A DNA stretch of 64,000 nt from Nocardioidaceae bacterium SCSIO 66511. Its GTDB lineage: Bacteria; Actinomycetota; Actinomycetes; Propionibacteriales; Nocardioidaceae. Location: positions 3,286,001 to 3,350,000 of the forward strand of contig CP095846.1 of assembly GCA_023100825.1 (NCBI GenBank), in the 5' to 3' direction. Below, piece after piece: positions 2,551 through 51,239 of this stretch (positions are counted from its first letter, which is position 1; each line of letters starts with the position of its first letter). A program made the translations under genes and the position numbers. Under the pieces are notes generated by a model. The model searched no databases, had not been told where the DNA came from, and worked only from the letters and a program-made list of their open reading frames with translations.

Positions 2551-3531
2551 ATGGACCTTCTCGTCGCAACTGCTGCCGCTAACGGCGGCTACTTTCGTAC
2601 GTACCAGGCGCTCGACTCCGGCTACCACCGGCGAGACCTACAGCGAGCGGTGCGTACGAAAGTCATTCATCGCATTCGGCACGGCACCTATGCCTTCGCT
2701 GAGATGTGGGATGACCTGACGCCAGAGCAGCGACACGTCGTGCTGACGAAATCGGTCGTCCGCGAGTCCAACGGTGCCGTTGCCGCCTGCTCGGTCAGTG
2801 CTTGCGCTCTCCGGGGCATGAGTCTGTGGGGTCACGACCTGTCGCAAATCCACGTCATGCGCCTGGGCGGCGGCGCGAGTAGGCGCGAGGCTGGCGTAGT
2901 GCACCATCGTGCGGCGATCGCAGAATCCGAAGTCGAGATTGTCGACGGGATCCCGTCGGTGAGTGCTGCGCGCGCGGCCTGCGAAGCCGGCTCTCGAGTC
3001 GGTCTCGAAGCCGGGATTGTCTTGTACGACTCGGGTTTGAGGCTCGGAGCAGTCACCGAGGAGTCGCTCGACCGACAAGCGGCCCTGATGGAGCGCCACC
3101 CGGGCACGCGCAAGGTGCGCTTCGGCGTACGCCTCGCCGATGGTCGCGCCGAAAGCCCGGGCGAGTCGCGCAACCGCTTCCTGTTCTACAGGTTCAACGT
3201 ACCGACACCCGACCTGCAAGTGTCGGTTCATGACTCAGCTGGGTTGTTGATCGGCATCACCGACTTCGGATGGGAGCTGTACTGCCACGTCGGCGAGTTC
3301 GACGGCATGATCAAGTACCGCCGTCGCTCCAACGGCGATCGGGATCCGGAAGCGGTCGTCATCGATGAGAAGAGGCGCGAGGACAAGATCCGCGCGCAGC
3401 GACGCGGCGTGACACGTACGATCTGGGCCGACCTGAACGGCAAGCAGGCCGCGCGTACCGCGGATCGTACGAAAGCCGATCTGGAGCAGTCCAGGCAGCA
3501 GTTCACGCGCAATCGCGTCACGATCGTCTGA
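2551..3531 (+). CDS. AbiEi-like winged-helix / Vsr-like PD-(D/E)XK domain protein A
   Basis: A 326-residue protein. The N-terminal ~90 residues resemble the winged-helix region of AbiEi-type antitoxins (GGYFRTYQALDSGYHRRDLQ, then RIRHGTYAFAE). Residues about 200-295 resemble DUF559/Vsr-like endonuclease folds: E205 in SPGES, D238 in ITDFGW, E249 in EFDGMIKY with K255, then EKRREDKIRAQRRG. These spacings fit a PD-(D/E)XK active site. No AbiEii toxin gene is adjacent. Start taken at the ATG at 2551; an in-frame TTG lies 9 bases upstream. Enzyme activity is inferred from motifs, and DNA binding from the winged-helix fold. It is paralogous in layout to the gene at 49313-50239, which is also bracketed by hairpins. 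Confidence 0.75.
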   Translation: MDLLVATAAANGGYFRTYQALDSGYHRRDLQRAVRTKVIHRIRHGTYAFAEMWDDLTPEQRHVVLTKSVVRESNGAVAACSVSACALRGMSLWGHDLSQIHVMRLGGGASRREAGVVHHRAAIAESEVEIVDGIPSVSAARAACEAGSRVGLEAGIVLYDSGLRLGAVTEESLDRQAALMERHPGTRKVRFGVRLADGRAESPGESRNRFLFYRFNVPTPDLQVSVHDSAGLLIGITDFGWELYCHVGEFDGMIKYRRRSNGDRDPEAVVIDEKRREDKIRAQRRGVTRTIWADLNGKQAARTADRTKADLEQSRQQFTRNRVTIV

Positions 3532-3555: not shown

Positions 3556-3597
3556 TGCATGGTGAACGTCCGCCTTACACGGCACCGCCGCCATGCA
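3556..3597. repeat. Degenerate PalB, right copy
   Basis: TGCATGG at 3556-3562 pairs with CCATGCA at 3591-3597, and the right half retains GCCGCCATGCAA of PalB. The interior no longer pairs well. Orientation relative to PalA is the mirror of the left side. Confidence 0.65.
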
Positions 3598-3598
3598 A

Positions 3599-3636
3599 GC
3601 CGGCCGTTTACCATGCAAACATGGTAAACGGCCGGC
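3599..3636. repeat. Hairpin PalA, right copy
   Basis: Perfect 17-bp inverted repeat with loop CAAA. The arm core GGCCGTTTACCATG is identical to the left copy at 2349-2382; only the loop and the outer bases differ. It lies 17 bases beyond the stop of the leftward lipoprotein gene. Confidence 0.9.
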
Positions 3637-24025: not shown

Positions 24026-24298
24026 ATCCAGGGGCTTCGCCGCTGGGTTTCTGCTTCCCTCGGTGCGGCCGCACACCTGCCCGATTCCTCGTCGCTGTCG
24101 GCCTTCTGCTTCCTTCGGTTGGGGGAGAGACGCGGCGACGCGCGGAGCCGCCACTTCGGTTCGGTTGCTTGGCGGCTCTCCCGTAACCTTAATATGGGAT
24201 CAGGGTAAGGTGAGTGGCTTCCCAAGGACGATTGCCGCTCTCCACGGCGAGTGTCCCTTGGGACAGCGATCATTTGCCTTGGGGCGTACGACTGTCGG

Positions 24299-24332
24299 GT
24301 GCGGTTTGCCTTGGTACCAAGGCAAACCGCAC
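24299..24332. repeat. Perfect 34-base palindrome
   Basis: GTGCGGTTTGCCTTGGT is followed at once by its exact complement. Related CCTTGGG/CCCAAGG segments nearby (about 24221-24265) can form a second, imperfect stem. The sequence has no relation to flanking genes. Confidence 0.9.
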
Positions 24333-24413
24333 CGCGACCGGAGCGCGCGACGCGAATGAGTGGACTCCTGCCACAGTGGCCCCGTACGTACCAACGAGCA
24401 CGGCAAGGACTCA

Positions 24414-24475: not shown

Positions 24476-24717
24476 CCCACCGACCCCGCAAAAGCCAACC
24501 GAATCGGGTTAGCCGGCAAGCAAGCCGAGCCCCGTAGCTGCGTCTCCCGCGTCGCCGCGTCTTTTGCCCGGCCGAGGTAGCGGGGAAGCCGACAGCGAGC
24601 GGAGTCGGGCAGTCGGGTGGTCGTGCCAGCAGGCGAGGGAAAGCCGACAGCGACGAGGACCGGAGGGGCGAGTAGTCGACATCAACGACTACGCGCCGAA
24701 CTCGTCGGAGCGAACCC

Positions 24718-39475: not shown

Positions 39476-39532
39476 TTGCGATCGGTTACGCCCAGCTCCA
39501 CTAGGTAGCGACCTGGGCGTAACCGATCGCAA
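39476..39532. repeat. Solo long hairpin, 20-bp arms and 17-base loop
   Basis: TTGCGATCGGTTACGCCCAG pairs perfectly with 39513-39532 around the loop 39496-39512. Arm and loop size match the hairpins around element B (21-bp arms, 17-base loop) though the sequence differs. It lies between divergent genes, so a terminator role is unlikely. Confidence 0.9.
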
Positions 39533-48548: not shown

Positions 48549-49229
48549 ATGCGGGTGCGTCTCGTGATCGCCCGCTGTCAGGTGGACTACGCCGGTCGAC
48601 TGACCGCCCATCTCCCCATGGCCAACCGCCTCATCCTGATCAAGTCCGACGGCTCCGTATCGGTCCACTCCGACGACCGCGCGTACAAACCGCTGAACTG
48701 GATGAGCCCGCCGTGCACGTTGCGCGAGTCTCAGGACGACGGAGTGACCGTTTGGACGGTCTCGGCGACCAAGACCGACGACACGCTGCGCATCCTGATC
48801 GAGGAGATCTTCCACGACTCGGAGCACGAGCTCGGCCCCGACCCGGGTCTGCAGAAGGACGGGGTGGAGAAGCATCTGCAAGAGCTGCTCGCCGAGCACC
48901 CGACGACACTCGGCGACGGCATCAGTCTGGTCCGCAGGGAGTACATGACCGCCATCGGCCCGGTCGACCTGCTGTGCAAGGACGACACGGGTGGCTCCGT
49001 CGCGGTCGAGATCAAGCGCCGCGGTGAGATCGATGGGGTCGAACAACTCACCCGCTACCTCGAGTTGATGAATCGCGACCCGCTGCTGGCCCCCGTACGC
49101 GGGGTGTTCGCCGCGCAGGAGATCAAACCGCAGGCGCGCGTACTCGCCCAGGATCGCGGGATCGAGTGCGTGACGGTCGACTACGACGACCTGCGCGGCA
49201 TCGACGATCCGAGCCTGCGCCTGTTCTGA
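48549..49229 (+). CDS. nucS: Mismatch-specific endonuclease NucS
   Basis: A 226-residue protein that replaces MutS/MutL mismatch repair in actinobacteria and cuts both strands at mismatches with the help of the sliding clamp. N-terminal DNA-binding/dimer domain (about 1-110), linker, and C-terminal RecB-like nuclease with D140, E154 and K156 (PVDLLC then [10 protein letters not shown]) and Q166. The C-terminus DDPSLRLF is a likely clamp-binding peptide. Convergent with the Vsr-like gene, separated by a 62-base hairpin repeat. Confidence 0.95.
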
Positions 49230-49242
49230 GGTGCTGTCGGCC

Positions 49243-49304
49243 AGAGTTTGCGGACTTTTCGGTGCTGCAGCGCGCGTACGACACCGAAAAGTCCGCAAAC
49301 TCCG
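49243..49304. repeat. Hairpin of element B, left copy
   Basis: A perfect 21-bp stem (arm begins GAGTTTGCGGACTTTTCGG, 49244-49264; complement 49282-49302) around loop CTGCAGCGCGCGTACGA. The 62 bases 49243-49304 are identical, loop included, to 50305-50366, in the same orientation. Confidence 0.95.
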
Positions 49305-49312
49305 ACACACGG

Positions 49313-50239
49313 TCAGCGTGAAGTAGCCGGCCGACGCTCGAACAGGCGCGACCACTGCTCGTCGAACACCGGCTCGGGTCCGACGTAACCTCCGGCTCGG
49401 AGTTTGGCGTGGACCCGGCGGACCACCTTGCGGGGCGCCCTTAGCCGGCGGTTCGTCACTCGATGGAAGCGCCACCCCGCGTCGTCGAAGCCCTCGATCC
49501 GGTCGAGATCGTGGTTCCACTGCGCAGTGTCCTCGGCGTGTTGGCGCCCGTCGTACTCGGTGACGAGCAGGTACGCGAGCCAGACGAGGTCGCCACAACC
49601 GAGGAAACGATCACCGTCGTAGATATCGAGATTGCACGCGTCGGGCTCGGGGAGCCCAGCCAGGACGAGCAGTAGACGAGTCACGCTCTCTCGGGGAGAA
49701 CGCACATTCGTGCGTACGTAGGGAAGCGCTAAGCGAGCATTGCGGATGCCCTCCCAGTTGTCCGTGCCTTCGACAAAGGTCACGAGCCGTTCGATTGTCG
49801 TGGCCCCGTTGTTGATCAGCCAGTCGGCTGCGGTCACCGCGTCGACGAGGTCGAGATCGAGGCAGGCATCGACCCAGCATTGCTCCGGACGCAGTGTGCC
49901 GTTGTCGTACTCGGCGAGCCGCATGCGGCGGATCACGCGTATGCCGTCCTGCTCGGTCGCTCGCCCCGCCGACGCGAAGCGCAACGGGAGCATCGAACCG
50001 AGCTCGACTCCGTAGCAGCGTAGACCGGTCAGATGAGTGGCGGCCGCATCGCCGACGACAAGTCGAGCCGCGTCGAGGTACGTTGCGAAGTCGAGCTGAA
50101 CATCCGAGCAGACATACACGCCGCGGAACACACGCTTGACCCGCGGCCCGCGCAGAAGCTGATCGCTCAGCCCATGGGCGCGCGCCGTGGAACGCGTGAA
50201 CGGCGCCTTGCGGAGCGCATCGGGTATCGCGACCTGCAC
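49313..50239 (-). CDS. AbiEi-like / DUF559-type PD-(D/E)XK domain protein B
   Basis: A 308-residue protein with the same layout as protein A (2551-3531) but diverged in sequence. N-terminal KAPFTRSTARAHGLSDQLLR and RVFRGVYV resemble AbiEi-type winged helices. The C-terminal domain has E184 (SPRES), D217 (GCGDLVW), E228-Y-D-G-R-Q-H234 and DDAGWRFHRVT, a DUF559/Vsr-like nuclease pattern. GTG start at 50239. No AbiEii-type toxin beside it. It is enclosed by identical 62-base hairpin repeats, and faces nucS tail to tail. Nuclease activity is predicted only from motifs. Confidence 0.78.
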   Translation of the reverse strand: MQVAIPDALRKAPFTRSTARAHGLSDQLLRGPRVKRVFRGVYVCSDVQLDFATYLDAARLVVGDAAATHLTGLRCYGVELGSMLPLRFASAGRATEQDGIRVIRRMRLAEYDNGTLRPEQCWVDACLDLDLVDAVTAADWLINNGATTIERLVTFVEGTDNWEGIRNARLALPYVRTNVRSPRESVTRLLLVLAGLPEPDACNLDIYDGDRFLGCGDLVWLAYLLVTEYDGRQHAEDTAQWNHDLDRIEGFDDAGWRFHRVTNRRLRAPRKVVRRVHAKLRAGGYVGPEPVFDEQWSRLFERRPATSR

Positions 50240-50304
50240 ACCCTCAGTGTGTTGCGCGCACGCCTTTTGGTGTCGCGCTCATCCACAGGCGGCCTCCGTA
50301 CGTG

Positions 50305-50366
50305 AGAGTTTGCGGACTTTTCGGTGCTGCAGCGCGCGTACGACACCGAAAAGTCCGCAAACTCCG
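50305..50366. repeat. Hairpin of element B, right copy
   Basis: Identical over 62 bases to 49243-49304. Arms 50306-50326 and 50344-50364. It lies between the VOC gene stop (50379) and the start of gene B, so it would also interrupt leftward read-through. Confidence 0.95.
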
Positions 50367-50378
50367 CAAGGCGGCGGA

Positions 50379-51239
50379 TCACGCAGCAGTCACGTGCACG
50401 CGGTTGGCCCACGGATCGTCGACGGTGACGGTACGCCCGTCGTCGCGCGGCTGCATGCCGTAGTGCTTCATTCGCTCGGTGAGTGCGCCGACCTCGTCCG
50501 CGTTCGGCACGATGATGTCGATCTGCCCGAGCCCGAGCGCGGGCTGTCGCGGACCGGCGCCGCGACTCTTCCAGACGTTCATCGCCATGTGGTGGTGGTA
50601 CTTCCCGGCGCTGACGAACAGCGCATCCGCACCGAACCACGCCGTCGCCTCGAACCCGAGCCGGTCGACGTAGAACTCACGAGCCGTATCCGTATCACCG
50701 ACCGACAGGTGGACGTGTCCGACAACGGCGTCGCCCAACCGCGGGTTGTCGATGCCCGGCTCGGTGAGGTGCTCGCGCAGGAACTCGTTCGGGTCGAGGT
50801 AGATCGTGGCCATTTCGACCTGCCCGTGGGTCCAACTCCACTGCGTACGATCGCGGTCCCAGTACAGCTCGACGCCGTTGCCCTCGGGGTCGTCGAAGTA
50901 GAACGCCTTGCTGACGAGGTGGTCGGAGCTACCCGTGAACCGCCCCGTGCCGGTACGCGCAACTGAGTTGACCGCAGCCGCCAACGCCTCCTGGGTGTCG
51001 AACAGGATCGCGGTGTGGAACAGTCCGGCCTCGCGCGGACCCGCATGCCGCAGATGTGGCGAATGCCGCAGGATCACCACCGGGTTCATCCTCCGGCCGA
51101 GCGTCACCGACCCGTCGACCTCGGCGAGTACGTCGAGTCCGATAGCGTCGCGGTAATACCGGGTCATCACGTCCAGATCGGCGACGTCGAGGGTGACGGC
51201 ACCCATCGTGGTGTCGGGGGCAATCAGTTCGCTGGTCAT
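50379..51239 (-). CDS. VOC-family dioxygenase-like protein (CatE type)
   Basis: A 286-residue protein with two vicinal-oxygen-chelate halves: MGAVTLDVADLDVMTRYYRDAIGLDV and VVGHVHLSVGDTDTAREFYVDRLGFEA. Candidate metal ligands are the His in GLFHTAIL/GHVHLSV and the Glu in GNGVELYWDR. Similar to CatE, an extradiol-type catechol 2,3-dioxygenase involved in quinone or catechol detoxification. The AT-rich palindrome-like site at 51255-51272 may bind a MarR-type regulator. Exact substrate uncertain. Confidence 0.85.
   Translation of the reverse strand: MTSELIAPDTTMGAVTLDVADLDVMTRYYRDAIGLDVLAEVDGSVTLGRRMNPVVILRHSPHLRHAGPREAGLFHTAILFDTQEALAAAVNSVARTGTGRFTGSSDHLVSKAFYFDDPEGNGVELYWDRDRTQWSWTHGQVEMATIYLDPNEFLREHLTEPGIDNPRLGDAVVGHVHLSVGDTDTAREFYVDRLGFEATAWFGADALFVSAGKYHHHMAMNVWKSRGAGPRQPALGLGQIDIIVPNADEVGALTERMKHYGMQPRDDGRTVTVDDPWANRVHVTAA

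Follow-up and report, generated by a model that had tools for sequence, protein, structure and literature searches.

Nuclease genes of an AbiEi-like/Vsr-like family and their private palindromes in Actinobacteria: a possible REP/RAYT-like partnership built on an unrelated enzyme

REPs are among the commonest bacterial repeats, and the enzyme tied to them in the literature that we compared is the RAYT (REP-associated tyrosine transposase, TnpA-REP), a Y1 HUH transposase (PF01797) that cuts the palindrome as single-stranded DNA and transfers strands; the gene and its REPs together are called a REPtron. As far as the accessible parts of the sources go, every RAYT gene is described as having a REP on either side (PMC2817692), REPs have a GTAG head and usually exceed 100 copies (PMC2817692, PMC8266576), convergent REPs are no more than 20 bp from either 3' end in the two species looked at (PMC3733652), and CGTC-tagged REPs apparently lack a dedicated transposase (PMC3733652). 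Another relevant system is that of the EDxHD homing endonuclease I-Bth0305I, described in a review (PMC3943268) as forming a dimer on its target of almost 60 bp.

The locus considered here shares part of the REPtron anatomy. The gene at its centre lies between two copies of its own palindrome, as do about half of the related genes tested; the palindromes are dispersed in intergenic space, mostly beside 3' ends, and differ from gene to gene. The comparison with RAYT genes made in the original prediction thus fits the anatomy, in so far as the partial texts describe it (PMC2817692, PMC3733652). The differences concern the protein, which from its predicted structure is AbiEi-like/Vsr-like and not a Y1 HUH transposase, and likewise the palindromes, which at about 52-72 bp are longer than REPs and occupy fewer places per type, from a few (genome G006) to at least 40 (genome G037), as against the usual more than 100 for REPs. 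No GTAG head was found beside the palindromes of the window's own family (R1), the columns outside the arms being variable in an alignment of 16 copies, and in two other types (F30 and that of locus L112) GTAG occurs inside the stem and not as a head. PF01797 was found neither in G000, the genome of the window, nor in G001, its sister species and the sole other genome of the genus compared, while the search was positive in 6 of 14 control genomes; this speaks against RAYT-driven spread in both species. The gene-palindrome system is not a member of the REPtrons and works like one, if at all, by another enzyme.

By the window we mean the whole stretch of 64,000 nucleotides that was analysed. The unit occupies positions 49243-50366, and its parts and immediate context are as follows:

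48549-49229, plus strand: nucS, a neighbour (context), ending 13 bases ahead of hairpin copy 1
49243-49304, no strand: hairpin copy 1 (family R1), lying where the 3' ends of nucS and of the nuclease gene face each other; its orthologous copy in G001 is L071 3053-3111
49313-50239, minus strand: the bracketed nuclease gene, a 927-base ORF encoding 308 aa, with a predicted AbiEi-like N-terminal part and a Vsr/I-Bth0305I/DUF559-type nuclease domain
50305-50366, no strand: hairpin copy 2 (family R1), of the same sequence as copy 1; it follows the glyoxalase-family stop by 12 bases and lies 65 bases upstream of the start of the nuclease gene
50379-51239, minus strand: glyoxalase-family gene, a neighbour (context), its stop 12 bases from hairpin copy 2

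Sequence comparison confirmed the original description of two identical 62-base hairpins around a gene, each formed by 21-base arms that are 100% complementary and a 17-base loop. Folded as RNA with short flanks, the two gave z values of -4.5 and -5.8 against dinucleotide shuffles, none of 200 shuffles being as stable. The whole window contains eight inverted repeats with arms of at least 18 bases no more than 100 apart, and this sequence occurs only in the two bracketing ones; an Rfam search of window positions 49000-50600 with E up to 5 gave eight matches, every one of them far under its gathering score. Exactly one ORF, that of 308 aa, lies in the 1000 bases separating the hairpins, and its 927 bases leave no room for an AbiEii partner, in agreement with the original remark that none is present; no AbiEii nucleotidyltransferase is present between the hairpins, and the neighbours are nucS and the glyoxalase-family gene. 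Of the spacings originally given, 65 bases on the start side is correct, and 10 on the stop side is right for a 59-base core, the gap from the 62-base copies being 8. In 10 genomes, each from a different one of 10 other genera, neither a family member nor such a hairpin comes within 1.5 kb of nucS, so that in this comparison the nucS-adjacent unit was found in this genus only. The G001 orthologue of the window gene (84%) retains one hairpin only, the stretch matching copy 2 and the first codons of the gene being missing.

The only Pfam matches of the window protein, to REase_MTES_1575/DUF559, are sub-threshold (E up to 1), while among 53 family members MTES_1575 is found in 51 and DUF559 in 44 at E 0.01. 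Likewise, the PADLOC AbiEi model matches 50 of the 53 members, with no match for the window protein at E 0.01. The structure model of the 308-aa protein has a mean pLDDT of 95.3, and in this predicted model the C-terminal part, approximately residues 180-286 and matched over 181-285, resembles I-Bth0305I (3r3p; Z 11.9, rmsd 2.8 over 97 residues), Vsr (1cw0; Z 10.1, rmsd 2.3 over 99 residues) and the DUF559-like 3hrl (Z 10.8), and residues 1-176 resemble the AbiEi antitoxin 6y8q (Z 10.2, rmsd 6.0). With Foldseek by itself nothing reached E 0.001, 3r3p coming at E 0.27; in sequence, 3r3p is matched weakly (E 0.29) and 3hrl better (E 1.3e-4). Seven residues are invariant in the 53 members (S181, E184, R188, E228, G231, H234 and D244) and two nearly so (D217 and R247), and the acidic residues and a His are also invariant or nearly so in a 23-member alignment. 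When profiles are aligned with 3r3p, E228 and D244 meet its E and D, and H234 does not meet the His. The confident model is that of an AbiEi-like fold joined to a Vsr/I-Bth0305I-like nuclease domain, in which the Vsr/DUF559-like domain first recognised in the sequence would be the C-terminal part.

The EDxHD relationship concerns the modelled fold of the C-terminal domain; the gene here is free-standing between palindromes, not in an intron, and the domain is fused to an AbiEi-like one. The AbiE relationship concerns the modelled fold of residues 1-176; here no AbiEii partner lies inside the bracketed unit and a nuclease domain is present. The size of the I-Bth0305I target is about that of these palindromes, a coincidence that is suggestive only. 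Our literature search, with most subscription journals outside its coverage, found nothing linking nucleases of the I-Bth0305I/Vsr type to dispersed palindromes.

The R1 hairpin is not confined to the window. A covariance model built from 16 copies locates it in at least 21 places in G000 (42 matches on two strands, the best 150 of 3476 candidates being scored), in nine in G001, one of them weak, and in 37 further relatives as one weak match each in two. With gene limits taken from a simple codon-usage caller, 16 of the 21 copies in G000 lie no more than 20 bases behind a stop codon, nine of these between converging genes, and five lie away from stop codons (L019, L020, L028, L063, L064). The gene-end fraction expected from uniform placement in the window's gaps of at least 62 bases is 0.11 (binomial tail 3e-12), and 0.33 when each gap is weighted equally (binomial tail 7e-5). 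In other genomes 16 of 26 loci, several of them one place counted twice, are within 20 bases of a 3' end.

This position invites an explanation in which the hairpins are only strong bidirectional terminators, spread by ordinary duplication or recombination, and the nuclease gene is a bystander. Besides the gene-end preference, the great stability of the hairpins speaks for it, and a G+C-rich hairpin behind a stop codon (16 of 21 R1 copies) is what an intrinsic terminator looks like, except that the T-run is lacking: among 13 R1 copies the plus-strand side has none behind the stem, and on the minus-strand side only L027 has one, of five T. Actinobacterial terminators without a T-run are known. 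It is likely that the R1 hairpins act as terminators in addition to whatever else they do. The original argument that identical loops indicate recent duplication instead of two terminators was too sharp, since 16 of 21 copies occupy a terminator position and the R1 family may do both. The window pair is indeed identical, the next best copy reaching 91%. Nor is an R1 pair special to the nuclease gene, as two further pairs bracket unrelated genes, one an ECF-type sigma factor and a partner gene (L029 3030-4491) and the other a hydrolase gene and a MarR-type regulator gene (L025 3049-4538), all named from ORF reading. Brackets can thus arise without a nuclease gene, a point in favour of the terminator explanation, and a bracket alone proves little.

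Comparison of the two species indicates a turnover of sites. When G000 sites were traced to G001 by a mixed query, followed by stretch comparison and a model search, the R1 hairpin was present in both species at only 4 of 21 (L018/L073, L064/L068, L065/L075 and window copy 1/L071), which answers in the negative the question whether it is fixed at one place in relatives; 17 of the 21 are without the hairpin in G001. A model search of the 14 G001 stretches corresponding to 16 sites found none at the slots and one weak match, in L122, about 1 kb off; in four of the 14 comparisons (L020, L024, L026, L063) a single flank aligned near the hairpin and the slot is approximate. The reverse case also occurs, the G001 copies L069 and L070 being absent from their G000 places. 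A short match had suggested a site common to L067 and L076; it is ruled out, the counterpart L131 having no hairpin. The hydrolase/MarR block of L025 (3049-4538, hairpin to hairpin) is wholly missing in G001 L124, with another hairpin at the joint, and in G001 L128, compared with L029 3030-4491, both R1 hairpins are absent though part of the ECF-type sigma factor operon is present.

At two slots (L124, L125) a different long hairpin stands behind the same gene in G001, and after a gene read as a class II ribonucleotide reductase-like one, F30 and its gene are found in G000, an R1-type hairpin and other genes in G001. Different hairpins at the same gene ends imply that some gene-end slots are kept while the hairpin families change, and such sharing of a slot again counts in favour of the terminator explanation. 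Target-site duplications were not clear by eye at any site inspected, and the flanking bases differ as well; with two species, no such duplication and differing flanks, insertion and loss are inseparable.

The turnover bears on a further possibility, that the palindromes are operator or processing sites, the protein regulating its own gene and a regulon or cutting an RNA hairpin at 3' ends. In its favour, AbiEi antitoxins bind DNA and regulate their own expression, and the modelled N-terminal fold matches AbiEi. Vsr-like folds are moreover found in RNA-binding proteins, for example FASTKD4, according to the part of the source available (PMC11879112), and the copies are mostly in 3' regions. 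A regulon should be conserved, yet the sister species differ at 17 of 21 sites; an informal look at the neighbouring genes, without systematic annotation, showed no common theme, and operators do not usually lie behind stop codons. We consider this explanation rather unlikely.

A protein search of G000 gave seven matches including the window gene, all seven with a matched repeat on both sides, the repeat differing from gene to gene. Their flank-match scores are 62, 54, 55, 69, 37, 23 and 42 with corrected starts and 500-bp flanks; at the settings of the first set described below, five of the seven pass (L033 and L034 then score 9). The stop-side gap is no more than 38 bases in six of the seven, and L034, with the score of 23, has long gaps of 265 and 158 bases. 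A later profile search found nine family matches in G000, the bracketing result covering the first seven. The window itself contains a second member:

2348-2413, no strand: double hairpin upstream of the second member, of the GGCCGTTTACCATG type
2551-3531, plus strand: second family member, distant, 326 aa, with its own, different hairpins
3570-3635, no strand: repeat downstream of the second member, an inverted match to the upstream repeat

A relative of this second member in G001 (L174) has hairpins with the same core and changed outer arms. Four of seven matches in G001 pass (L136, L137, L174, L175), three of these four ORFs being in the wrong frame and their gaps rough; those that fail are L135, with a score of 12 despite look-alike hairpins on both sides, L134 (15) and the window orthologue (12).

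For wider sampling, the two 400-bp flanks of each member were compared by local alignment and the best match was taken as its bracketing score, with a threshold of 20, and genes of 600-1500 bp from the same loci served as controls. The first set, from relatives, comprised the best match per genome, further matches at E no higher than 1e-7, four weaker ones and the G000 matches, omitting L094, L099, L102 and L105 (edge or fragment), L163, L117 (edge), four contig-end or fragment matches and other weak matches; 36 of 74 members were bracketed, as against 4 of 1499 mismatched flank pairs and none of 154 other genes in the same loci, a count lowered by wrong ORF limits in some members (e.g. L166, L135, L033, L034). 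The second set, of named loci, mainly from Nocardioides, Aeromicrobium, Microlunatus, Phycicoccus, Serinicoccus and uncultured relatives, with 6 of 80 edge loci dropped, again gave 36 of 74, against 3 of 1500 mismatched pairs and none of 193 other genes, and is not independent of the first, the two having loci in common (e.g. L208 = L090, L231 = L101). The third set, from outside the order, consisted of 40 members among the matches listed by a profile search, free of internal stops and away from contig starts, of which 21 were bracketed, as against none of 1000 mismatched pairs and none of 63 other genes. Added up, the three partly overlapping sets give 93 bracketed among 188 tests and none among 410 other genes. 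Roughly one tested member in two therefore lies under the threshold, some through wrong ORF limits and others truly. The matched flank repeats are mostly palindromic, though in the second set not all are clean hairpins by the stem finder. Of 198 genomes sampled from the phylum, 69 contain the family by a profile search with E no higher than 1e-10.

The similarity of proteins and that of their hairpins are weakly correlated: a flank repeat is common to 4 of 29 non-syntenic pairs with at least 60% protein identity and to 2 of 1800 sampled pairs below 35%. The signal being weak beyond close relatives, we draw no argument from any joint evolution of the protein with its hairpin. Two members of G033 (L146 and L147) are 87% identical and non-syntenic with a flank repeat in common, which, to judge by their sequences, is a sign that the gene itself can duplicate.

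The palindromes of other members are dispersed as well, all eight repeat types tested being so in the genome that has the cognate gene. F30, the hairpin of a 72% paralogue (G000:C1:1932748), occurs in at least 12 full places in G000 and in none in G001 among the candidates scored, and no orthologue of its gene was found in G001, where the closest genes to the window protein are the 84% orthologue and a 45% relative. F31, the hairpin of a third member, occurs in at least 10 places in G000 and at least 25 in G001, with the gene in both at the same place (L031 in G000 and L136 in G001, loci 85% identical over 9 kb). A mixed query with the hairpins of five members from five genomes gave at least 40 places in G037 and a handful among the matches listed in G006, each match listed being that genome's own hairpin; among the matches listed there were none in G023 and G025. 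Genome G026, of the genus of G034 and with a related member (L114), had at least five matches to the mixed query. Most listed places of the L112 hairpin in G037 are 93-100% identical over the matched palindrome, centre included, a likeness of sequence that suggests a recent burst. A solo copy of a further type lies in the window:

24298-24333, no strand: solo copy of the hairpin type of L034, whose gene is L034 4926-5837 (G000:C1:2529925-2530836)

About 340 bases past it, at window positions 24676-24702 (G000:C1:3310676-3310702), there is a 27-base partial match to F30. A strong hairpin at 39476-39532, with 23-base arms 96% complementary and an 11-base loop, was the only one of its type in the G000 stretches searched, and may be yet another family.

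Taken together, the bracketing counts and the cognate dispersal tie the hairpin types to genes of the nuclease family, as the original prediction had proposed for the window, and neither of the two refuting conditions set with that prediction holds; we regard the link between the nuclease family and private palindrome families as well supported and very probably real. They also weigh on the terminator explanation, which leaves unexplained the member-specific sequence common to both sides in 93 of 188 tests and 0 of 410 other genes, the co-occurrence of the types tested with their genes and, likewise, the constancy of length in R1 and F30 while the loop sequence varies. A pure terminator reading was dropped as insufficient since paralogues have their own hairpins, and we judge it improbable that terminators with a bystander gene are the whole account.

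The anatomy of the palindromes suits a different kind of constraint. The length between anchors is 59 bases in 28 of 29 R1 copies, and it is 55 bases in 11 of 12 copies of F30, 62 bases in 25 of the 30 copies of F31 found (by a pattern that recovered 30 of 35 known places) and 52 bases in 24 of 24 copies in G037; two false pattern matches in L063 and the weak G001 copy L076 are omitted from the count, and the constancy may in part reflect searches that favour copies of like length. Arms are conserved within each type; of the four types measured, R1, F30 and F31 have a variable centre and that of G037 a conserved one (mean 0.93). A constant length around a variable centre would fit a dimer reading two inverted half-sites, whereas the loop of a terminator needs no fixed length.

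The relationship of flanking to solo copies concerns yet another explanation, that of a homing-type element in which the whole hairpin-gene-hairpin unit moves, solo hairpins being scars of gene loss by recombination between the flanking copies. In the window type (R1) and in F30 no two copies are closer to each other than the flanking ones, and such an element would agree with the modelled resemblance of the nuclease domain to a homing endonuclease, with the loss of the L025 hairpin-cargo-hairpin segment as a block in G001 and with the occurrence of the nucS-adjacent unit in this genus only. In G033, G034 and G037, however, the flanking copies are not the closest pair, some solo copy being as close or closer, and two intact sites flank the gene where homing would leave an interrupted one. 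Three of the seven unit sites were compared between the species: the gene is in both at two (window/L071 and L031/L136), G001 has other genes at the third (L030), and none of the three is a case of unit against solo hairpin of the same type. We think this explanation quite unlikely.

The reading of the locus in the original prediction is thus supported in part, and the explanation that we prefer, with somewhat better than even confidence, is a gene-palindrome partnership of the REP/RAYT kind on an unrelated enzyme, in which cutting by the nuclease would drive the spread, homogenisation or retention of the palindromes. It rests on anatomy and fold, and the role of the nuclease as mover of the hairpins is inferred. 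The AbiEi-like N-terminal part would read the palindrome arms, the protein working as a dimer with one subunit per arm, and the Vsr/EDxHD-type domain would cut at the palindrome centre; palindromes behind genes may be tolerated because they are bidirectional terminators there. A nuclease devoid of strand-transfer activity does not alone explain copying to new sites, which counts against the partnership, as do the members under the bracketing threshold, the single hairpin of the G001 orthologue, the R1 brackets around unrelated genes, the conserved centre in G037 and the solo copies as close as the flanking ones in G033, G034 and G037; candidate routes by which a cut palindrome might reach a new site are end-joining, template switching and movement of the whole hairpin-gene-hairpin unit.

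In a broader form, to which we give slightly less than an even chance, these would be a new class of dispersed palindromes with a dedicated sequence-specific endonuclease (a predicted AbiEi-like reader and a Vsr/EDxHD cutter) across Actinobacteria, each of several paralogues in a genome owning a private palindrome family copied or maintained by it, and the palindromes doubling as gene-end terminators that compete for slots. With CGTC-tagged REPs these palindromes share a dispersal at gene ends without a RAYT, the sequences and organisms being different, and RAYT-less REPs might have their missing partner in this enzyme family.

If the partnership is real, a second and unrelated enzyme would carry a REP-like signature, which would suggest that partnerships of gene and palindrome arose more than once, and there would be a handle on how REP-like repeats spread. 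It would also give a likely role to a large gene family known by domain names only (DUF559, MTES_1575, AbiEi-like). For each nuclease the private palindrome is a predicted binding site, so that the idea is testable through many natural pairs of enzyme and site.
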